NCBI RefSeq assembly: GCF_014237455.1
Contig: NZ_JABZFL010000051.1
Span: 62,001-126,000 of the forward strand
Direction of reading: 5' to 3'
DNA length: 64,000 nucleotides
Source of the DNA: Desulfobacula sp.
Lineage (GTDB): Bacteria; Desulfobacterota; Desulfobacteria; Desulfobacterales; Desulfobacteraceae
The notes beneath the pieces are model-generated. The model saw nothing but the letters and a program-made list of their open reading frames with translations, was not told the origin of the DNA and ran no database searches. The translations under genes and the position numbers were made by a program. Positions 37,254 to 62,768 of the stretch are shown piece after piece (position 1 is the stretch's first letter; each line of letters starts with the position of its first letter).

Positions 37254-38243
37254 ATGAAACATTGGACTGAACCAAATGGAAACTTTATCGTGAATATTCC
37301 GATTGAATGGCAGTATAAAAATGTTGTTTATGAAGATATAGAAGAAAAATCACCGTATAGTTTTGAGCCATATGAAGACTCTTTAGGTTGTTTTCAATTA
37401 AGCTGTTATCCATTGTCAGAAAAGGGGCCTAACCCAAATTTTCCGATTCAAAAAAATAACTCAAAAGTAAAATGGTTAGCATCAAGAATGGATGATAAGG
37501 AATTTGATGTATTACTATTTCATGCACAGGTTGACGATTTGCTTTGCATGGCAAAATACATCTACTCTGCAAAGCTTAGAGATGACAAAAAAATTCAAGA
37601 GCAGATAGAAAAAGTAAAATTAGCACTAGATAGTTTTCGAGTTATACCACAAACTGATAGGGAGTTGGCAAGGCAACTTGATAAACATGATAATTTTTTA
37701 TCTTCATTAACTGCCTCATATGATTTATTAAATAATGCATTGGAATCAGAATCATATATCGAAGTAATTGTAATTTTAGCAAATCAAATTGATGCATTTT
37801 TAAGGTCTTCGATAATTTTAAAAAAACAATTAGAAAAAAAAACCAACAACATTGAAGTAAAATATATTTTCCAGGGAGATGATGAATGGGGAATTAATGA
37901 AAGAAAAATTTACAAAAAGGCTCAGAAAATGAAAATCCTTGATGATGAAACCTTCAAGGAACTTAATAATTTATATGATTTAAGAAATCGTGTTATCCAT
38001 CGCTATATTATTTCTTTTATAAAAACACGTGACATTGTTAAAATTGCATATGACTATTTAATTCTAAACGAAAAGATTCGGTTAATTTTAAAATCCTATG
38101 AAGAAATGCAATATGGAAAAGGATTTGGTATTTATGGTCGTGGATATAGCAAGGATGATGAATTTGATGAAACTGAATATAAAAGAGCTTTCTCTTGGGC
38201 AAATGATAAACATTTAATAGAAAAACTTGAACGAAAATTATAA
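37254..38243 (+). CDS. Hypothetical protein: PsbP-like N terminus, HEPN-like C terminus
   Basis: 329 residues. The first about 135 residues (WTEPNGNFIVNIPIEWQY, LGCFQLSCYPL) look like a PsbP/DUF-type beta domain of the kind found in small bacterial cytosolic proteins. The rest is helical and contains LYDLRNRVIHRY, which fits the Rx4-6H motif of HEPN domains (often RNases or nucleic-acid binding in toxin and defence systems). AT-rich, unlike the neighbours. Located between the gene cassette and a truncated cupin gene; no attC follows, so I cannot show that it is itself a cassette. Function unknown. Confidence 0.6.
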   Translation: MKHWTEPNGNFIVNIPIEWQYKNVVYEDIEEKSPYSFEPYEDSLGCFQLSCYPLSEKGPNPNFPIQKNNSKVKWLASRMDDKEFDVLLFHAQVDDLLCMAKYIYSAKLRDDKKIQEQIEKVKLALDSFRVIPQTDRELARQLDKHDNFLSSLTASYDLLNNALESESYIEVIVILANQIDAFLRSSIILKKQLEKKTNNIEVKYIFQGDDEWGINERKIYKKAQKMKILDDETFKELNNLYDLRNRVIHRYIISFIKTRDIVKIAYDYLILNEKIRLILKSYEEMQYGKGFGIYGRGYSKDDEFDETEYKRAFSWANDKHLIEKLERKL

Positions 38244-41785: not shown

Positions 41786-42940
41786 TCAGATGATTAATTT
41801 TTCAATCATTCCCTGTTCAATATGAAACAACCACTGACTGCCTTTTTCACACTCATCCGGTTCCAGGCTCTGAACGACCTTTATATATTTTTTTTCTACC
41901 CGATCTATTTTTTTTTTAATAATTTGAATAAATGTTTCGCCCTCTTTATTTAACTGATTGTTTTCACATTTGGTTTTAAAAATTTCATCAGCCAGCTTGA
42001 ACTTGTCCATTGATAGATTTGATTTTTCACAAAAAAACTTTAACCGCTGAATTCTTTCTTCAATACAGCGATCTAAATTATCCTGCATGCCCTTGATCAG
42101 GCCTCTGGAAAAATTATCATAAACAAAAAGCGAACGGATGTGCTTATACCAGAATCTTAAGGCAATAAGCCCTGCAATGTAATAGATATTGTTATTAAAA
42201 ATATGGGTCCCATTTTTAATAACGTAAAAGCGTTTTGGAACGGAACCATCCTTAAAACTGCCGCCAAGTATAAGCTGGTTGTTTTTTAATTCATTTTTTC
42301 TGATAATGGAACCGGCTGCTGTGATACAGCCATATCCTATCCTGACGGGCCCGACAAGCCCACCCTGCCCTCCTAAAAAGATCGGATCTGAATTCAGCAT
42401 GACACCCTGATGGACATCCCCCAGCATGGAAGGCGTGGCCTTGTCCTGATTGGGCGTATAATTAAAATGGACAAAAGAAGACCCGACTTCAGAGTGATTT
42501 TTACGGCTTGTTCCGCCTGCCATAAAACAATCGCAAAAATTAACCAGGCTGCCCAGGGTTACAAATGGAAACAGAATGGTCTGCTTGAGACCCACCGTAT
42601 GGGCTGCATTTGCTTCTTCTTCAAATATAGTGCCTTCTCTTACGTGTGCTCCGGAGCCAACCGAATTGTCACCGGCAAAAACAGCGCCCTTAAAAAAGCC
42701 CCCTTTTAATTTTGTATTTTCGCCGACAAATGTGTTCTCAAGTGTCACCGGTGCTTCATATCCGATTTGAGAATTTCTCATAATCAGGCAGTTTTCTCCG
42801 ATGATCTTACAACCGCCATAAATAATAACATTTTCACTTGAGATTCTGTCCGGATTGACATCCTCTGAGATATAGACGGATTCGGGATTGGGAATTTTTA
42901 TCCCTTTTTTTATGAGTGTCTTAACAATATTGTTTTTCAT
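41786..42940 (-). CDS. Left-handed beta-helix (hexapeptide) protein, GlmU-like without the pyrophosphorylase domain
   Basis: About 384 residues. After a short N-terminal segment, hexapeptide-repeat coils run from about 30 to 240 (IIYGGCKIIGENCLI, VTLENTFVGENTKL), with the conserved insert SRKNHSEVGSSFVHFNYTPNQ and GGQGGLVGPVRIG. The last about 130 residues are helical. No nucleotidyltransferase domain is present. Members are often annotated as UDP-GlcNAc pyrophosphorylase-like without proof. ATG 42940 is preferred to the TTG at 42961. It lies just upstream of glmM, so a role in amino-sugar nucleotide synthesis is plausible. Confidence 0.75.
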   Translation of the reverse strand: MKNNIVKTLIKKGIKIPNPESVYISEDVNPDRISSENVIIYGGCKIIGENCLIMRNSQIGYEAPVTLENTFVGENTKLKGGFFKGAVFAGDNSVGSGAHVREGTIFEEEANAAHTVGLKQTILFPFVTLGSLVNFCDCFMAGGTSRKNHSEVGSSFVHFNYTPNQDKATPSMLGDVHQGVMLNSDPIFLGGQGGLVGPVRIGYGCITAAGSIIRKNELKNNQLILGGSFKDGSVPKRFYVIKNGTHIFNNNIYYIAGLIALRFWYKHIRSLFVYDNFSRGLIKGMQDNLDRCIEERIQRLKFFCEKSNLSMDKFKLADEIFKTKCENNQLNKEGETFIQIIKKKIDRVEKKYIKVVQSLEPDECEKGSQWLFHIEQGMIEKLII

Positions 42941-43018
42941 GAAATTATAAATAATTGTCAATGGGTTGAATTGTCAAGGTATTTTCTCCGGAAGTGTGAT
43001 TTAACCAAACATGAAAAT

Positions 43019-44131
43019 TCAGACAAGGCATCCTCGCGCATCAATCCGCTCTTTATGCAGAGTCCCGCCGGAAGAGATCAGATAGAAGTGATCATACAGA
43101 TTAACGCAGAGGCTCACATTTACCGGGACAATGCTCAGGCGTTGTCCCACCTTTGGCGGAGAACTGCAGGCGCTGACATCAATCCATCCGTGTTCTTCAT
43201 GCAGTCGGGTTATCACGGCATGAGGATGTTCAACCACATATCCCATCTCAAGGTTTTTAAAGCGTAACAGCTGCTTAGCGGAAAGAGCCTTGGATCCGGC
43301 GTCAATAATAACCCGGCCCGGCGTTGTGTTGGAGACAACGGTTGCAACCACGCGTGCTGCACACTCTTCCAAAGTGCAGTGGTCAAACTTTTGAATAAAG
43401 TAATCATTATAAACAGCTGTTCCCACCCTGATTTCATTAATATGGGGGATAAGGTGTGTGTTTTCCAGGGAGGGTGTTGAGCCTGATGATACGATTTCAG
43501 GCTTAAGGCCGGCAGAGCAGAGTGCATCATATACAGGAACCCACATCTGGTTGATCTGTTCAAAATTTTGCACATTACGGGCGCTCTCTCCGTAGAGATG
43601 CCCAAGATACATCTGAATGCCGTCGTATCGCAATGTTTCAAGGTTTTTTGCATATTGTGCAAGTTTTATAATCTGTTCGGGCCCGACAAAGCCGCAGCGG
43701 TGAAGTCCGGCATCAAACATGACCAGAATGCCTATAACAGTATTATAATCAGCTGCTGCAAAAGCAAGCTGATCCATTATATATTGAGAATCCACAGCAA
43801 CTCTCACATTATGTTTCAGGGAGAGTTTTGCAAGGGATTCTGCCCGGGCGTTTCCTACAACAGGATAGGCAACAGTAATATCCACATCATTGATTTCTGC
43901 CATGATTTCGGCTTCACCTGCTTTTGCACAGGCAATGCCCTTTGCACCTGAGTCAAGCTGCATACGGGCTATATAAAGGGACTTGTGGGTTTTGATGTGT
44001 GGTCTGACAGCGAATCCGTAACGGTTTGCATAGTCGTGGATGCGGGCTATATTTTCTTTTATAATATTTTTTTCCACGACAAGAAATGGGGTTGGAATCC
44101 GGCTTGTGATATTAAGTATATTTTTTTCCAT
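43019..44131 (-). CDS. Fold-type III PLP enzyme, D-threonine aldolase/D-serine dehydratase-like (metal site degenerate)
   Basis: 370 residues. The N-terminal alanine-racemase-like TIM barrel has the PLP motif RPHIKTHK (Lys 47 the likely Schiff-base residue) and GIACAKAGEAEIM. The C-terminal beta domain carries HEEHGW and VPVNVSLCVNLYD. In characterised relatives that last motif is PNHxC/D..VNL, where the His and the Cys or Asp bind a divalent metal; here they read Asn and Ser by a gap-free hand alignment. It is last in an operon with two nicotianamine-synthase-like genes, 30 bases after the previous stop, with GGGAG upstream. It may be a racemase or lyase providing an amino acid to that pathway. 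That is inference. Confidence 0.75.
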   Translation of the reverse strand: MEKNILNITSRIPTPFLVVEKNIIKENIARIHDYANRYGFAVRPHIKTHKSLYIARMQLDSGAKGIACAKAGEAEIMAEINDVDITVAYPVVGNARAESLAKLSLKHNVRVAVDSQYIMDQLAFAAADYNTVIGILVMFDAGLHRCGFVGPEQIIKLAQYAKNLETLRYDGIQMYLGHLYGESARNVQNFEQINQMWVPVYDALCSAGLKPEIVSSGSTPSLENTHLIPHINEIRVGTAVYNDYFIQKFDHCTLEECAARVVATVVSNTTPGRVIIDAGSKALSAKQLLRFKNLEMGYVVEHPHAVITRLHEEHGWIDVSACSSPPKVGQRLSIVPVNVSLCVNLYDHFYLISSGGTLHKERIDARGCLV

Positions 44132-44161
44132 GACAGCTCCCTTAGCCTGAAGTTTAAAAAA

Positions 44162-44962
44162 TTACTCCTTTACCAGAAAAACAGACGTATTATTTACCGG
44201 AGGCTTCGGGCGTATGCGCATGTATTCCCTGAATTTATGGGGAAGATCAAAAACAGACCTGTCATCCATAAGTCTTCGCAGTCCCTTTTCATAAATTCGA
44301 TAGGAAACCCTTGTCCCCTCTGGAAGTGATCCTGCAAGATGAGTGAAGATTTCATTCTTGGGATGTGCATCAGCTCCGATCATGACAAGGTGGCACTTTG
44401 GGTCAAGAGGCAGCAAAAAATGGTTTCCCTGAATAATACGAATATGTTCGGTTAATTCAAGGGTTTTAATGAGTCTTGTTGAAAGTTTTGCATATTCCGG
44501 TATACGTTCAATGCCGATCCCTTTAACACCGTATTGTGAGCAAAGACAGATAAGACTTAAAGGCAGAGGTCCGCTTCCAAGAAATACAACACGATTTTCT
44601 GATTTAAGGTTTCCGCCCTTATATTCCATGTGGGCCAGTTCAACATAGTTTGGAAAGAAGGCAAAGTCCTTTATTGCTTTCCAGGGATCAGGGCTCGAAA
44701 CAATCGAATGCGCGCTCTTGATCTCCATTCTCAAACCATAGGTTCTTTTCATGTGGGAAATTTTTTTTATAACCGGCTTGAAATCTGGAGAACACAGCAG
44801 ATCCTGGGCTTCATTATCGTCAATGTCCATAGCTCCAAGACGATTAAGTTTCTCAAGATGGGGACGCAAAACAGGTTCGGGTGTGTTGAATATTTCATCA
44901 TCCGGCAGATGGCGGATGGCTGAATAAATATTCATGAATTCGTTTTTAAATGAACGCTTCAT
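44162..44962 (-). CDS. Nicotianamine synthase-like protein 1
   Basis: 266 residues of the NAS family: an N-terminal helical domain, then a SAM-binding Rossmann domain with VVFLGSGPLPLSL and a second acidic motif region IGIERIPEYAKLS. The C-terminal PPVNNTSVFLVKE matches the NAS ending (N-S/T-V/I). Family members transfer aminobutyrate groups from SAM to make nicotianamine or, as CntL, to build opine metallophores. ATG overlaps the TGA of the second NAS-like gene (ATGA), so the two are translationally coupled. Divergence between the two copies suggests different acceptor substrates. Confidence 0.78.
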   Translation of the reverse strand: MKRSFKNEFMNIYSAIRHLPDDEIFNTPEPVLRPHLEKLNRLGAMDIDDNEAQDLLCSPDFKPVIKKISHMKRTYGLRMEIKSAHSIVSSPDPWKAIKDFAFFPNYVELAHMEYKGGNLKSENRVVFLGSGPLPLSLICLCSQYGVKGIGIERIPEYAKLSTRLIKTLELTEHIRIIQGNHFLLPLDPKCHLVMIGADAHPKNEIFTHLAGSLPEGTRVSYRIYEKGLRRLMDDRSVFDLPHKFREYMRIRPKPPVNNTSVFLVKE

Positions 44963-45861
44963 TCAATAAGCCGTGCAATAATAGTTGTATTGTTGACCCG
45001 CTGGGTTGGGGGGATCTCCGTGATTATTTTAAACCCGTTAATATCATCCGGCTGAACAGGTTTATAGAGGACAGCGCGCATTCCCGTGTATGTCCGGTAG
45101 ATAAGGGGTATACTGTTATTCCCTTCTTGCCGGAGCCCCGCCTTTTTTATAATGGTGCGCAGGTTTTTAAAAATCCGAATCTTTGGCTCTGCCAGTGCGG
45201 CAACAAGAATAGAATCCCACTCCAGTTCCCTGAGCCGGGTCTCATCTCCCTGAATAATGGTAATATAATCCTCAAGGCCCAGGCAGGCAACCACCCTCCT
45301 GGCAAGTGATACGCTGTCAGGCATGATATCAATTCCAATGGTCCTGACCTTATACAGCCTGCTCAGCAGGATTAGAGTCATGGGTACCGGGCCGCATCCT
45401 ATAAATGCCAGAACACTGTCATCAGAAAAATTCATCTTTGCCATCTGATTTTTTATCAGCGTTTTATATCTCGGGTACAGGGGAAATGATTCAAATACCA
45501 CCCAGGGATTTTTTGCATTCAGCAATTGCTTTGCCAGGTGCCTTTCATGAATATCGAAAAATGTTGTATAGCAGGATCTGATCACGGGAAGTTCGTGTCG
45601 GATTGTCGGATCATCCAGAATCATCCCGGCCAGGCCGTCACCTACATTCAGGTGAGCCAGGTCATCAATGATCTGAAATTTTTGGTACAACTCCTCTGGA
45701 TCAAGTGCTGTAAGGGCGTCTATCGAATAGATTTTGATATCTTTGGAAAAGCCCAGAATCAGGGGTTTTACAATTTCCAGGCTTTGTCTGCAATTCAGGC
45801 AGCATCCTAAAAAATCATGTTTCTCAATTTCATGCTCATGTGTAAAATTAATGTCATGCAT
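44959..45861 (-). CDS. Nicotianamine synthase-like protein 2
   Basis: 300 residues. Rossmann motif VLAFIGCGPVPMTL near residue 150, then TIGIDIMPDSVSLA, and the C-terminal RVNNTTIIARLIE shared with plant and bacterial NAS. The N terminus is unusual, with a His/Cys-rich start (HEHEIEKHDFLGCCLNC) that could bind metal. AGGAG is about 13 bases from the ATG. First gene of the NAS-NAS-PLP operon, divergent from recJ across a 224-base gap. No dehydrogenase of the CntM type and no dedicated exporter is next to it. Confidence 0.8.
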   Translation of the reverse strand: MHDINFTHEHEIEKHDFLGCCLNCRQSLEIVKPLILGFSKDIKIYSIDALTALDPEELYQKFQIIDDLAHLNVGDGLAGMILDDPTIRHELPVIRSCYTTFFDIHERHLAKQLLNAKNPWVVFESFPLYPRYKTLIKNQMAKMNFSDDSVLAFIGCGPVPMTLILLSRLYKVRTIGIDIMPDSVSLARRVVACLGLEDYITIIQGDETRLRELEWDSILVAALAEPKIRIFKNLRTIIKKAGLRQEGNNSIPLIYRTYTGMRAVLYKPVQPDDINGFKIITEIPPTQRVNNTTIIARLIE

Positions 45862-46042
45862 GACAAATTTTTGCTCCTGTTTAATGAGTAAACCAAATAA
45901 AAAGCAAAAGAATGACCCCGTTTAAAGAGAATATAACAATTAACTGTGAATTACCATGCTCCATTCACTTATTGGCATAAGCTATAAAAGCTGACCGGTT
46001 GTTTTCTCCATAGGGATTTATTAATCTCAGGTCAATTGCAAA

Positions 46043-52631: not shown

Positions 52632-53363
52632 TTATTTATGATTGTGGGGATGTTTTCCATGTTTGTGAACATGCTCATGGCGATGAATATGGATTTCATC
52701 GTCGGTTAAGATTTTACCGTTTTCCATGGAATATATTTTATCTGTTACAGCTTTGGCAAAATCAAATTCGTGTGAAATGACAAAGTAAGAAATATCAAGG
52801 CTATTGAGAATATGAATCAATTTTTCCTTAACCTTGTGATCCAGCCCTGCTGTCGGCTCATCAAGCAAAAGAACTTCGGGCTCCATGGCAAGCACCGCAG
52901 CCAGTGCGACCAACCGTTTCTGTCCGCCGGACAACCTGTGGGTCACACTCTGTTCTAAAATTTGTATTCCAAGCCTTTCAAGGGTATTTCTTGCCGTATC
53001 AATGGCATCCTGCGGAGAAAATCCAAGATTCAACGGTCCAAATGCCACATCATCCAGTACGGTTGGACAGAATAACTGATCATCAGAATCCTGAAATAAT
53101 AACCCGATTTTGGAACGAACCGGCAAAAAGTCTTTTTCATGTTTTAACTGCTTCCCAAACACTTCTATGGTGCCGGATTCAGGCTTGCAAAGTCCCATTA
53201 TCGTATGCAGCAACGTGGTTTTGCCGGACCCGTTGGGAGCCATCATTCCAATCCTGTCTCCTTTGTTGACCTCAAGATTCAGGTGATCCAAAACCCTTGT
53301 ATTTGATCCCGGATAAGAATAAGAAATATCTTTTAATTTGATTACACTGGAATTGTCAGTCAC
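52632..53363 (-). CDS. nikO: Nickel/cobalt ECF transporter ATP-binding protein (NikO/CbiO)
   Basis: 243 residues: Walker A GSGKTTLL, Q-loop FQDSDDQLF typical of ECF ATPases, signature LSGGQKRLVALA, Walker B VLLLDEPTAGLD and H-loop ISHE. The C-terminal tail is strongly His-rich (HIHRHEHVHKHGKHPHNHK), which could hold nickel or cobalt. GTG start. Last gene of the nikKMLQO operon. The substrate (Ni or Co) cannot be fixed from sequence; the NikK/NikL-type extra subunits favour nickel. Confidence 0.9.
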   Translation of the reverse strand: MTDNSSVIKLKDISYSYPGSNTRVLDHLNLEVNKGDRIGMMAPNGSGKTTLLHTIMGLCKPESGTIEVFGKQLKHEKDFLPVRSKIGLLFQDSDDQLFCPTVLDDVAFGPLNLGFSPQDAIDTARNTLERLGIQILEQSVTHRLSGGQKRLVALAAVLAMEPEVLLLDEPTAGLDHKVKEKLIHILNSLDISYFVISHEFDFAKAVTDKIYSMENGKILTDDEIHIHRHEHVHKHGKHPHNHK

Positions 53364-53381: not shown

Positions 53382-54137
53382 TTAAGCCCACATAATTTCA
53401 AATATGACAAGGCTTAAGCTTGCCGCAAGTATACCCATTAAAAAAATCGAGTTTAATCTATTTGACGGGTAGACGTCAAGGGTATGGAACTTTTGATTGA
53501 ATCCACGGCACAACATGGCCTGGTAAACTCTTTGGGCTCTGAGTGATGCCCGGACAAAGAGCATACCGGCAAGATAAGCAAATGTTTTATAAGAATGCAG
53601 ATTGGTCCTGGGGGTAAATCCCCTGAATTTTGCAGCCCGCAGAAGCCTTTTGTATTCTTCCTCAATCACTGCAATATATCGATAGGACATCAATAAAAGG
53701 AAGACCATCTTGTCGGGCACATAAAGTCTGTGAAGCCCATTTCCAAGGGAAGCAACGGTCATAGTGGCAATAAGAGCGGTGAATATTAGTAATATGGTGA
53801 TTGATTTAATGGTGATCTTGCAACATAACATGACACCGGGACCTGTTATTCTTAGCCAAGAATATTGGTATATGGTTTCCCCGTCAAAGGTTAAGGGAAG
53901 GATAACCCAGATCATCAAAAGAAACCAGAAAAGGGGTTTTAACCGGTTAACGACAGCCCTCCATTTTAATTTAGCCATTGTGATTAAAATGGATGATATA
54001 ATAAAATAGAATCCTGCAATGGTAAGATGATCACAAAGTGCCGCAGCAAAGGATAAAATAATCGAAGCAATGATTCGTATTTTAGGGTCAAGCTGATGGA
54101 TAAAAGACTGACCTGATGCAAATTTTTCTTCAATCAT
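53382..54137 (-). CDS. nikQ: Nickel/cobalt ECF transporter transmembrane protein (NikQ/CbiQ)
   Basis: 251 residues with about six membrane helices and the two Ala-Arg-type coupling motifs of ECF T components (SLRAQRVYQAMLCRGF; the first RAAKFRGFTPR). It links the ATPase to the substrate-binding NikM. Its ATG overlaps the stop of the upstream small-subunit gene by four bases. Confidence 0.88.
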   Translation of the reverse strand: MIEEKFASGQSFIHQLDPKIRIIASIILSFAAALCDHLTIAGFYFIISSILITMAKLKWRAVVNRLKPLFWFLLMIWVILPLTFDGETIYQYSWLRITGPGVMLCCKITIKSITILLIFTALIATMTVASLGNGLHRLYVPDKMVFLLLMSYRYIAVIEEEYKRLLRAAKFRGFTPRTNLHSYKTFAYLAGMLFVRASLRAQRVYQAMLCRGFNQKFHTLDVYPSNRLNSIFLMGILAASLSLVIFEIMWA

Positions 54138-54616
54138 TTTTTGGCTGTTTTCCTTTTTAAAAACTTTACAGCAAATGCCAGCAGAAAAATTATGACAATA
54201 CCTGTAATTATTTTAAAAACAGAAGGGCTTTCTTCCAGTTTTTCTTTTTCCTTCATTGCCGCCTGGGTATCTTTGGCTGAATGAACGGTCACGAGCTCAT
54301 TTTTAGGAATTCTCCACTGGGCTTGATGGGCTGTCCCTGCATCAAGTTTTAATAGAAGATCGGAATCGACCTTTTCAGGAATTTTAAATGAATAGTTTCC
54401 TTCCGGGTCTGTCATTCCTTTATGGACAATCAACCCTTTTTCATCAACGACCGTTATAGTGGCGTTTTTTGCTTTTCTTTTTGATCCGAAACTGCTTTCC
54501 GTATGTATGTAACCATCTTCAACCCATGCAAAAATAATGACCTTGTGAGCAAAGGCATAACTCGCAGGAATGATAGCTAATAGAAGTGCAAAGGTAAGCG
54601 TGTGTTTTATTTTCAT
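54134..54616 (-). CDS. nikL: Nickel transporter accessory subunit (NikL-type)
   Basis: 160 residues: signal peptide followed by FAHKVIIFAWVEDGYIHTES, so the mature protein begins with or near a His as in NikL, a carboxypeptidase-regulatory-like beta sandwich (ITVVDEKGLIVHKG, TDPEGNYSF), and a C-terminal membrane helix (IITGIVIIFLLAFAVKFL). In NikMLQO-type systems it replaces NikN/CbiN. 4-base overlaps at both ends place it firmly in the operon. Confidence 0.82.
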   Translation of the reverse strand: MKIKHTLTFALLLAIIPASYAFAHKVIIFAWVEDGYIHTESSFGSKRKAKNATITVVDEKGLIVHKGMTDPEGNYSFKIPEKVDSDLLLKLDAGTAHQAQWRIPKNELVTVHSAKDTQAAMKEKEKLEESPSVFKIITGIVIIFLLAFAVKFLKRKTAKK

Positions 54617-55218
54617 TTTTTTCTCACCGGTATAATTTCAGGGTATACCTTTAAAAGAAACGTGACGCAAAAGCCTGTCACAATTCCTTCAATGATCATG
54701 ACAGGAATGTGAGCACTGATAATGACAAGACTGGTTTCAAAAAAATTCTCGTCAGTGAACCATAAGGCCAGCCCTAATAACAGGGATGAGAACAATATAG
54801 AAAACAGACCGGCCAAAAATCCGGCAGCAAATGTAAGGGTTGATGATTTCCCCAGCAATGGTAAAAAAATATAATGTACAAGCACTGCCGGAACTGCCAT
54901 CACTATAACATTAACCCCCAATGCCGTAAGGCCCCCGTATTGAAAAAAGATCGACTGCAAAAGCAGCGCTGTCAGAATTGCCGGGATCGCGGCAAACCCA
55001 AGCAGCAATCCCACAATCCCGTTTAAAATCAGATGGACGCTTGCAGGCCCGATATTTACATGGATCAATGATGCCACAAAAAAAGCTGATGCCAGAATGG
55101 CCACATGAACGATGCGGTCATAATCAATTTTTTTTAGCCCTATTGCAGTCCCGGCCATGGCGATAACTGCACCGGAGGCTAATACCGGACCTGAAAGAAC
55201 GCCTTCTGAAATATGCAT
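54613..55218 (-). CDS. nikM: Nickel/cobalt ECF transporter substrate-binding protein (NikM/CbiM)
   Basis: About 201 residues, membrane protein starting MHISEG: the N-terminal Met-His with a second His in ASVHLILNG are the metal ligands of CbiM/NikM. ATG 55218 is chosen for that reason; the ORF-track start eight codons earlier would bury the essential N terminus. It is one base downstream of the nikK stop. Confidence 0.9.
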   Translation of the reverse strand: MHISEGVLSGPVLASGAVIAMAGTAIGLKKIDYDRIVHVAILASAFFVASLIHVNIGPASVHLILNGIVGLLLGFAAIPAILTALLLQSIFFQYGGLTALGVNVIVMAVPAVLVHYIFLPLLGKSSTLTFAAGFLAGLFSILFSSLLLGLALWFTDENFFETSLVIISAHIPVMIIEGIVTGFCVTFLLKVYPEIIPVRKK

Positions 55219-55219
55219 A

Positions 55220-55996
55220 CTATTTTGCCTGCCACGCCTCAAATTTTACCCATAATACTGCACCCAACTCTATATCCTTTTCTACATTATTATGCACCAA
55301 TTTTTTATCAGATGTATTTAAGGCGGCAAATCCCCACCATCCGGCAACAGGTGCAGCATAGGTAAACACACCGTTTCCATCAGCCTTTATGGTCTGAGTT
55401 ATCATATAATCAGACGGTGCCTGGATGTTGTTGCCTTTATTAAAAAATTCCACTTCAACTTCTGCATAGGGCACAACCTTACCGTCAAGCTTTACAATCC
55501 CCTGGAACACATTTCCGGCATAAAGGCCAAACGGTTTGGACAATGGAACAATTTCAGTTTTCAGTCCCAGTTCGCTGTCCCAGCCCTCATCATCACCAAA
55601 AGCTGCTACTACGGTTTTTGTATAATGAACAATAAAACAATCTTCAGCCGGTTCCCAATAGGGTTTAGGTTCCATTACAAATGTATATGCCCCGGGCCTT
55701 TTTATGGTGTATCCTGTTTTCCAGGCTTTGTGATCCATCACTTTTGTCTCTTTAAGTGCTGCATTTAACTCCTGTTTTTTCCCATCTTTGATCACATAAA
55801 AACCTTCCGGTTTTACAAGCGGCATCCCAACCATTTCAAAGGGATGGGAAAAAGAAAGTTGAAGTTCAATCTTTTTTGAATCCTCCTGCATGACCATATT
55901 ATCTGAAGGAATAACCATGCCAAAATGTGCTGAGGACAGGCCATAGGAAAAACAAATCATTAGACTTACCATACAAATCAGTTTAAACTTTTTCAT
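55220..55996 (-). CDS. nikK: Periplasmic DUF4198 protein (NikK-type nickel transport component)
   Basis: 258 residues. Signal peptide (ICFSYGLSSA) then AHFGMVIPS, so the mature chain starts near a His, and DUF4198-type beta domains follow (FSHPFEMVGM, GRPGAYTF-like IKRPGAYTFVMEPKPYWEPAED, GVFTYAAPVAGWWGFAAL). NikK proteins are found in Ni-type ECF operons. AGGAG lies upstream. First gene of the operon, downstream of a terminator-like hairpin. Confidence 0.85.
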   Translation of the reverse strand: MKKFKLICMVSLMICFSYGLSSAHFGMVIPSDNMVMQEDSKKIELQLSFSHPFEMVGMPLVKPEGFYVIKDGKKQELNAALKETKVMDHKAWKTGYTIKRPGAYTFVMEPKPYWEPAEDCFIVHYTKTVVAAFGDDEGWDSELGLKTEIVPLSKPFGLYAGNVFQGIVKLDGKVVPYAEVEVEFFNKGNNIQAPSDYMITQTIKADGNGVFTYAAPVAGWWGFAALNTSDKKLVHNNVEKDIELGAVLWVKFEAWQAK

Positions 55997-56013: not shown

Positions 56014-56072
56014 TTTAAAAAACCACAAAAGGTGTCGATATTCTTTTACCGATATTGCAACCTTCGTGGTTT
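56014..56072 (-). terminator. terminator-like hairpin in the nikK leader
   Basis: On the minus strand AAACCACGAAGGT pairs with ACCTTTTGTGGTTT (one bulge), followed by a T-run, ending about 10 bases before the nikK ribosome binding site. The loop holds a direct repeat (CGATATT on the plus strand at 56036 and 56050). Either an attenuator for the nik operon or the terminator of the upstream gene. Confidence 0.5.
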
Positions 56073-56084
56073 AAATTGTTTATT

Positions 56085-56120
56085 AAAAAAAAATTGTTTT
56101 TCTTCGGGCTTCTGCCTGAA
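56085..56120 (-). terminator. probable terminator of the PflX-like gene
   Basis: A 7-bp hairpin (TTCAGGC-AGAA-GCCCGAA, one mismatch) about 35 bases after the stop, followed nine bases later by nine T on the minus strand. The gap before the T-run makes it weak. Confidence 0.4.
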
Positions 56121-61583: not shown

Positions 61584-62768
61584 TCAATACCAGACAATCT
61601 CACGATATGCCTCCGGGTCCGTATCTCCCTCTGTCGAAAACAATAATATTTTAGAATCACTCGTTATGCGCAGGTCATCTTTTATGCTGCCATACTGCTT
61701 TTTGGAAAGCAGTTCGTAAACCAGTCCAAGCGTCACAGCACCGGACTCACCTGATATAATTGCCTGGTCACCCGCCAATGGGTTTCCCAGAACCCTCATT
61801 CCCCGCCGAGCCACATCATCTGAACATTTAATAAAAGCACCTGCCTCAGCATTTAGTATTCGCAGCCCTATATGGCTGGGCTCACCACAGGCAAGACCGG
61901 CCATAATTGTTGGCAAATCACCCTTCACCTTAAAAGGCTTACCATCACACAATTTTATTGACTTATAGAGACAGGGCGCACCCTGCGGTTCAACCACGAC
62001 AAATACGGGTGTTGTTTTATCAGTGAAACTGCATAAGCAGGCCAAAATGGCCGCTGCCAAAGACCCGACACCTGCTTGTAAAAAAACATGTGTTGGCCAT
62101 ATTTCCTGTTCCTGGTAAAGACATTCAGTTATCAATGTGAAATAACCCTGCATAATATATGTCGGTACTTTCTCATATCCGGCCCATGAGGTATCCTGTA
62201 ACAAAATCCACCCATTATCTTTTGCCATCTTTTCAGCATAAAGAACCGTATCATCGTAATTTTGATTTATAATTGATGCCTCAGCTCCGAACTGCTTTAT
62301 TGCATTTAAGCGTGCCAAAGAGGAACCCTCAGGCAGATACACAACAGCTTTGCAGCCAAATTTTTCCGCTGTCCAGGCGACCGCCCTGCCATGGTTACCA
62401 TCTGTTGCAGTCGCAAATGTGATTTTTTGAAATTTAAATTTTTCAGATACGATTCTCTCAAAAGTCAATTCATCGTCACTCAAATTCAATTTATTTCCCA
62501 GAACCTTGGCAATAGCATAACTGGCGCCCAAAACCTTAAATGCATTTAAATCAAAGCGGTGGCTTTCATCTTTGACGAACAATCTATCAATTCCAAGTTT
62601 ATCCGCAAGTGAAGATAACCGGATAAGCGGTGTCGGCTTATAGTTGGGAAGGCTTTTATGAAAATTAACAACACGCATGGCTATCTTGTCATTAGCAAAA
62701 TTAAATAATGACGGATCATACTTGTGTTGTGTGTCATTCAACTGACAGGAAATATTTCGACCCTTCAT
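61584..62768 (-). CDS. Diaminopropionate ammonia-lyase-like PLP enzyme
   Basis: 394 residues, fold-type II PLP family. The pattern FHKSLPNYKPTPLIRL, VKDESHRFDLNAFKVLGASYAI (Lys of NAFK binds PLP), TATDGNHGRAVAW and a C-terminal GESGAVTLG loop match DpaL/YgeX, which splits 2,3-diaminopropionate to pyruvate and ammonia. A threonine-dehydratase-like activity is the alternative. AAGGA precedes the ATG. Confidence 0.82.
   Translation of the reverse strand: MKGRNISCQLNDTQHKYDPSLFNFANDKIAMRVVNFHKSLPNYKPTPLIRLSSLADKLGIDRLFVKDESHRFDLNAFKVLGASYAIAKVLGNKLNLSDDELTFERIVSEKFKFQKITFATATDGNHGRAVAWTAEKFGCKAVVYLPEGSSLARLNAIKQFGAEASIINQNYDDTVLYAEKMAKDNGWILLQDTSWAGYEKVPTYIMQGYFTLITECLYQEQEIWPTHVFLQAGVGSLAAAILACLCSFTDKTTPVFVVVEPQGAPCLYKSIKLCDGKPFKVKGDLPTIMAGLACGEPSHIGLRILNAEAGAFIKCSDDVARRGMRVLGNPLAGDQAIISGESGAVTLGLVYELLSKKQYGSIKDDLRITSDSKILLFSTEGDTDPEAYREIVWY

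Follow-up and report, generated by a model that had tools for sequence, protein, structure and literature searches.

A candidate CntM-less, nicotianamine-like metallophore pathway in Desulfobacula and its relatives

Three adjacent genes of a Desulfobacula sp. encode two proteins of the nicotianamine synthase (NAS) family, NAS1 and NAS2, and a PLP enzyme. We propose, with moderate confidence, that this trio constitutes a nicotianamine-like metallophore pathway that dispenses with the opine dehydrogenase CntM and serves nickel or cobalt acquisition; as part of this reading, it is also rather probably a mobile, self-contained biosynthetic unit. The trio lies in a stretch of 64,000 nt (Desulfobacula sp., NZ_JABZFL010000051.1, positions 62,001–126,000, forward strand), referred to here as the window.

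Gene arrangement, insertion site and distribution

The trio and the segment that contains it have the following positions in the window:

44959–45861, minus strand: NAS1, predicted NAS-family aminocarboxypropyl transferase, 300 aa (Pfam NAS, MtNAS 3fpe)
45790–45861, minus strand: N-terminal His/Cys motif of NAS1, MHxxxxxHxHExxxHxxxxCCxxC (residues 1–24)
44162–44962, minus strand: NAS2, second NAS-family protein, 266 aa (Pfam NAS; Glu80/Tyr106)
43019–44131, minus strand: fold-type III PLP enzyme, candidate amino-acid racemase, 370 aa (PLP lysine K47)
42986–46038, no strand assigned: segment missing from an approximately 90% identical relative (just the trio with some 170 bp upstream)

The stop codon of NAS1 and the start codon of NAS2 share 4 bp (ATGA), with NAS2 translationally coupled, and the PLP gene begins 30 bases after NAS2 on the same (minus) strand. 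The open reading frames confirm this layout as given in a preliminary description of the sequence, together with the SAM-binding motifs reported there, of which GCGPVP belongs to NAS1 and GSGPLP to NAS2.

A congener with approximately 90% identity (G053) is colinear with the window on both sides of the trio and lacks positions 42986–46038; at this empty site (L116), positions 42985 and 46039 of the window come to within 11 bp of each other. Relative to this genome, the segment is a precise insertion of about 3.05 kb, and because the flanks are colinear and the segment is missing there, the three genes and about 170 bp upstream are one unit that was gained or lost. The 8-bp sequence TTTTCTCC stands at both edges of the segment, which may be chance. 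The downstream genes for GlmM and a GlmU-like protein were ruled out as operon partners, since both lie beyond the end of the empty site at 42985. The GlmU-like gene (41786–42961), whose product is a left-handed beta-helix protein resembling the acetyltransferase half of GlmU, adjoins GlmM and is colinear in a NAS-less relative, which places it outside the cassette.

NAS matches above the Pfam cut-off were found in 28 of the 390 genomes of the class. A draw from the phylum gave five further NAS genomes, three of them already represented among the loci (L024, L032, L033), and a scan of named genomes added Desulfospira joergensenii, Desulfosarcina and several metagenome-assembled genomes (MAGs), one of which, NAS-bearing, is a Candidatus Tritonobacter from another phylum. 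Among 37 distinct related loci, NAS1 and NAS2 occur together in 32, and contigs cut at the cluster account for two of the remaining five; the PLP gene lies directly downstream on the same strand in 21 of the 37. The neighbourhood search suggested in the preliminary description thus shows the three-gene cluster to be conserved in relatives, contrary to the refuting outcome named there. A relic N-terminal NAS1 fragment in Desulfosarcina widdelii (L035:10001–10252) and relic PLP-gene fragments in two other genomes (G012:C1:3568282–3568635; G361:C223:4065–4415) were all found where no intact cluster is present, which shows that the cluster was lost repeatedly. Among plasmids, the search returned one lone NAS-family gene (L111:5821–6585) and nothing beyond it; the gene, without trio partners, is carried by Halocatena marina, a haloarchaeon, on a plasmid of 473 kb. 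A search of viral contigs gave no lead.

A TRAP transporter (DctP-DctQ-DctM) follows NAS2 at the position of the PLP gene in G029 (L012:10289–13254) and G023 (L015:9447–12450). Neither genome yielded a PLP homologue, and an importer of the substrate may stand in for the racemase there. Five loci have, close to the NAS cluster, a related class I methyltransferase with the motif KYWNWRSxSYG, a possible tailoring enzyme:

KYWNWRSxSYG methyltransferase: L014:10921–11745, L034:5185–5922, L036:1416–2246, L065:2738–3520, L074:17511–18251

The two NAS proteins and the PLP enzyme

Both NAS proteins match Pfam NAS (PF03059) above the gathering cut-off (NAS1, E 6.5e-24; NAS2, E 2.5e-26; 85.2 and 93.1 bits for the two proteins against a cut-off of 27.1). 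In a PDB search, the best solved relative of each was MtNAS (3fpe), the thermonicotianamine synthase of Methanothermobacter, with E-values of 3.8e-47 for NAS1 and 3.2e-26 for NAS2, and an AlphaFold (AF2) model of NAS1 superimposes on 3fpe with TM scores of 0.80/0.90 at 35% identity. The match of both proteins to CntL is weak, and neither reaches the CntL equivalog NF033601 (36.9 and 24.4 bits against a curated cut-off of 350). Ordinary methyltransferases can be ruled out, since Pfam NAS and MtNAS are far better matches than any methyltransferase family. The tree, which the preliminary description had proposed as a check on this point, likewise keeps both proteins in NAS clades. NAS1 forms one group (97/98) that joins with MtNAS, and NAS2 makes up a separate section, split from NAS1 and MtNAS (99/100); the CntL branch is very long, so that its placement means little. 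The 99/100 split rules out a recent tandem duplication of one NAS gene. On sequence grounds, NAS1 and NAS2 are an old, co-inherited pair of paralogues. Within its group, NAS1 of the window clusters with Tritonobacter and two other MAGs and not with its own family (100/99).

In MtNAS, Glu81 and Tyr107 deprotonate the acceptor amine (PMC10491745). They correspond to Glu106 and Tyr132 in NAS1, retained in 33/33 relatives, and to Glu80 and Tyr106 in NAS2, retained in 31/31. Because this pair is kept in both proteins, NAS1 and NAS2 are both likely to be active enzymes. At the positions aligned with H70 and R95, NAS1 retains the MtNAS residues and NAS2 does not, which suggests that the two enzymes may use different acceptors. 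NAS1 alone carries the N-terminal block of histidines and cysteines, in which H2, H10, C20, C21 and C24 are present in 32/32 sequences, H8 in 31/32 and H15 in 30/32. The block has no counterpart in NAS2 and no match in the MtNAS or CntL alignments at this position, and it is modelled with low confidence by AF2; it is a possible metal- or Fe-S-binding extension.

The PLP enzyme matches Ala_racemase_N (1.7e-23), which confirms the alanine-racemase fold noted earlier, and D-ser_dehydrat (PF14031, 1.5e-17). Its best solved relative is D-threonine aldolase 4v15 (TM 0.86), and it is a two-domain fold-type III enzyme of the D-threonine-aldolase/D-serine-dehydratase (DTA/DSD) family. In AxDTA, a metal held by His347 and Asp349, together with His193, activates the beta-hydroxyl group (PMC4401734). 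The position of His347 (338 in the PLP enzyme) is occupied by Asn in 19/21 and by Ala in 2/21 sequences, that of Asp349 (340) by Ser or Ala in 21/21, and no His stands at the His193 position in the PLP enzymes of the cluster in the alignment of relatives. The PLP lysine K47 and the stacking tyrosine Y175 are kept. This loss of the metal ligands and of His193 makes retro-aldol and dehydratase chemistry unlikely, and the protein is probably neither an aldolase nor a dehydratase. Racemisation requires neither the metal nor the DTA His193, and we infer that an amino-acid racemase is the likeliest function. The preliminary description had left the choice between a PLP racemase and a lyase in place of CntK; the racemase is plausible, and an ordinary aldolase or dehydratase is opposed by the active-site residues. 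An arginine at the position facing the pyridine nitrogen of PLP (R235 in 18/22 PLP enzymes) was considered as a mark of a racemase, which is weakened by a hydroxyaspartate dehydratase that has Arg there too.

The PLP gene, counted at 60% identity or above, is present in 21 of the 28 NAS genomes versus 2 of 362 others, both of the latter being fragments (Fisher p ~1e-26, uncorrected for kinship). By this distribution, it is a specific companion of the NAS pair. Since it is missing from some NAS genomes (G029, G023, G656), it is not essential to every version of the system.

Nickel and cobalt import genes beside the cluster

The window holds a complete set of NikK-NikM-NikL-NikQ-NikO genes, in this order and on the same strand as the trio:

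55220–55996, minus strand: NikK-like DUF4198 protein (PF10670, 1.2e-59; NikK by DUF4198 and position)
54613–55242, minus strand: NikM/CbiM substrate-specific ECF component (PF01891, 9.9e-53; NF004905, 1e-76), start probably at 55218 (MHISEG)
54134–54616, minus strand: NikL-family ECF subunit (NF058648, 5.6e-27; 94.9 bits, just under the cut-off of 100)
53382–54137, minus strand: NikQ/CbiQ transmembrane component (PF02361, 2.3e-31; TIGR02454 over cut-off)
52632–53363, minus strand: NikO/CbiO ATPase (PF00005, 9.2e-30)

NikK and NikL mark nickel-type ECF systems, with some cobalt exceptions (PMC2667541). In the window, these genes lie 6.8 kb from NAS1 (nearest gene end, 52632) and, as the empty site indicates, outside the inserted unit. 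The preliminary description had seen nothing to link the nickel/cobalt ECF transporter to the operon, a view overturned by relatives that carry it directly upstream. Nickel/cobalt transporter genes adjoin the cluster in 9 of the 37 loci, across several families; most NAS loci have no such adjoining transporter. A homologous importer stands directly upstream of NAS1-NAS2 in G029 (L012) and in Desulfospira joergensenii DSM 10085 (L013), where the PLP gene follows, and precedes a NAS2 remnant in G023 (L015). G350 (L071) has an unbroken run NikK-L-M-Q-O-NAS1-NAS2-PLP, and G268 (L074) has NikM-Q-O before the trio. L034 has NikO alone in front of the trio, as does L019, there with a transposase in between; L062 retains a NikO fragment at the contig end, and in the congener G044 (L016) DUF1007 and NicO follow the PLP gene. 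A NikO homologue lies directly before NAS1 in L012, L013, L034, L071 and L074, and in relatives the NikK-M-L-Q-O-NAS1-NAS2(-PLP) operons open with a NikK homologue. NikK homologues are common in the class (265 of 390 genomes), so that their occurrence together with NAS was set aside as evidence and only adjacency carries weight. NAS-less congeners (G055, G052) have NikO followed by the reversed 47850 gene and RecJ; in Desulfospira the trio stands between NikO and the reversed 47850 gene/RecJ, and in the window on the far side of RecJ. Independent arrivals of the trio near the Nik locus are possible.

Other metal-import genes also occur close to the cluster: TonB receptors in L026, L061, L064 and L074, accompanied in L064 by a periplasmic binding protein (SBP), FecCD and an ATPase. 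An exporter was not identified near the trio. NikR-type operators were not found upstream of NAS1 or NikK, and no Rfam riboswitch was detected at gathering scores in window positions 38000–64000. Upstream of NikK, several genomes have short repeats that resemble hairpins, the loop being A(C/A)GAA (window 56058–56090; L012:4320–4400; L015:4640–4710); they match no Rfam family at a meaningful score and are a possible regulatory RNA or operator. A ferredoxin-like ORF of 79 aa (CMGCWDCIEACPLDAI) lies just upstream of NikK in L071 (11240–11479) and just upstream of NAS1 in L075 (8720–8959), and its position in these loci is a trace of a shared ancestral arrangement.

Proposed pathway, alternatives and significance

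Staphylopine-type metallophores are built by the racemase CntK, the NAS-like enzyme CntL and the opine dehydrogenase CntM. The absence of an adjacent CntM in the preliminary description is borne out on a larger scale, as PF10100 has no match in the whole genome of the organism (97.8% complete). We propose the following hypothetical scheme, in which (i) the PLP enzyme would change the configuration of an amino acid, acting as a racemase that supplies a D-amino acid, the task of CntK in staphylopine synthesis; (ii) NAS1 would move the 3-amino-3-carboxypropyl group of SAM to the amino group of this starter, with release of MTA, as do MtNAS and CntL; (iii) NAS2 would transfer the group once more, or to another acceptor, to yield a linear polydentate aminocarboxylate that forgoes reduction by an opine dehydrogenase; and (iv) the chelate would feed the NikKMLQO-type ECF importer, helped by TonB receptors in some relatives. 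The reactions and their substrate, the racemase role, the metal, and the ways into and out of the cell are inferred. The outline agrees with the nicotianamine-like or D-amino-acid-containing chelator suggested beforehand, for which the case is stronger than it seemed then, and is supported by the NAS family membership, the conserved cluster, the catalytic pair and the nickel/cobalt synteny. More tentatively, the trio may be a dedicated nickel/cobalt metallophore system with two sequential NAS enzymes, a D-amino acid from a repurposed DTA-family racemase and a metal-sensing NAS1 N-terminus, encoded by a cassette of about 3 kb that repeatedly lands beside NikKMLQO importers.

The trio shares with MtNAS (3fpe/3o31) the fold, the SAM motif and the Glu/Tyr pair, and aminocarboxypropyl transfer would be expected of its NAS pair as well. 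MtNAS is one iterative enzyme, whereas the trio has two coupled paralogues, the additional His/Cys N-terminus of NAS1 and a PLP partner. As in the staphylopine and pseudopaline systems, a NAS-like transferase is clustered with metal-import genes; part of those systems have an amino-acid racemase beside the transferase, where the trio has a candidate one. The trio differs from them in lacking CntM, in having a PLP enzyme where the CntK type is cofactor-independent, in having two NAS proteins, both of which score far under the cut-off of the CntL equivalog, and in that most of its linked loci have an ECF and not an Opp/FecCD-type importer. With D-threonine aldolase, D-serine dehydratase and hydroxyaspartate dehydratase (4v15, 3anu, 3wqc), the PLP enzyme has in common the two-domain fold-type III architecture, the PLP lysine and the stacking tyrosine; unlike them, it has the metal ligands and catalytic His replaced, and its clade occurs with NAS pairs. 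NikKMLQO nickel ECF systems ordinarily stand without NAS genes, whereas relatives of the window, which has all five components, join them directly.

Nicotianamine in plants is an intracellular metal chelator, and we know of no described export system for the MtNAS product. The same chemistry might yield an unsecreted chelator that buffers ECF-imported nickel or cobalt for hydrogenase, CODH or corrinoid enzymes, an explanation we consider rather unlikely. It would suit an inserted unit that has neither exporter nor receptor, an ECF importer of free ions that needs no extracellular chelator, and a His/Cys N-terminus with which NAS1 might sense intracellular metal or receive it; MtNAS, among characterised proteins the closest relative, also copurified with its own product (PMC10491745). 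Against it stand the TonB receptors close to the cluster of four relatives, one of which also has FecCD and a binding protein, and use inside the cell, as raised in the preliminary description, is therefore not favoured.

That the PLP enzyme instead works in the manner of DTA or of a D-hydroxyaspartate/serine dehydratase, producing or removing a beta-hydroxy-D-amino acid as a building block, would agree with its family and its fold (TM 0.86 to 4v15). We regard it as improbable, given that throughout the cluster other residues stand in place of both metal ligands needed to activate the beta-hydroxyl and of the base His193 (PMC4401734). Least probable of all, and only a slight chance in our view, is a SAM-derived aminocarboxypropyl or azetidine compound without a metal role (e.g. 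an antibiotic or osmolyte), with the Nik neighbourhood incidental. Many loci without metal genes nearby, and the TRAP transporter in place of the PLP gene in G029 and G023, would fit such a product; the repeated nickel/cobalt ECF adjacency in several families and NicO/DUF1007 in the congener do not. To our knowledge, all characterised NAS-family products bind metal.

Because genome surveys of metallophores of the NAS type take CntM as their starting point, pathways that lack it escape them, as the authors of PMC7438024 acknowledge. In the openly licensed literature we found no earlier description of the system, and nothing relevant on NAS from sulfate-reducing bacteria or together with ECF transporters. 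With the trio, sulfate reducers have CntM-less NAS pathways on paper, and NAS chemistry gains a genomic link to nickel/cobalt import; the joined units of relatives point to a means of nickel or cobalt collection not described before in bacteria. A clade of fold-type III PLP enzymes has a probable new function. The supply of nickel for hydrogenases and CODH of sulfate reducers in sulfidic, metal-poor sediments thereby becomes directly testable, with Desulfospira joergensenii DSM 10085 as a culturable carrier of importer and trio in one run.
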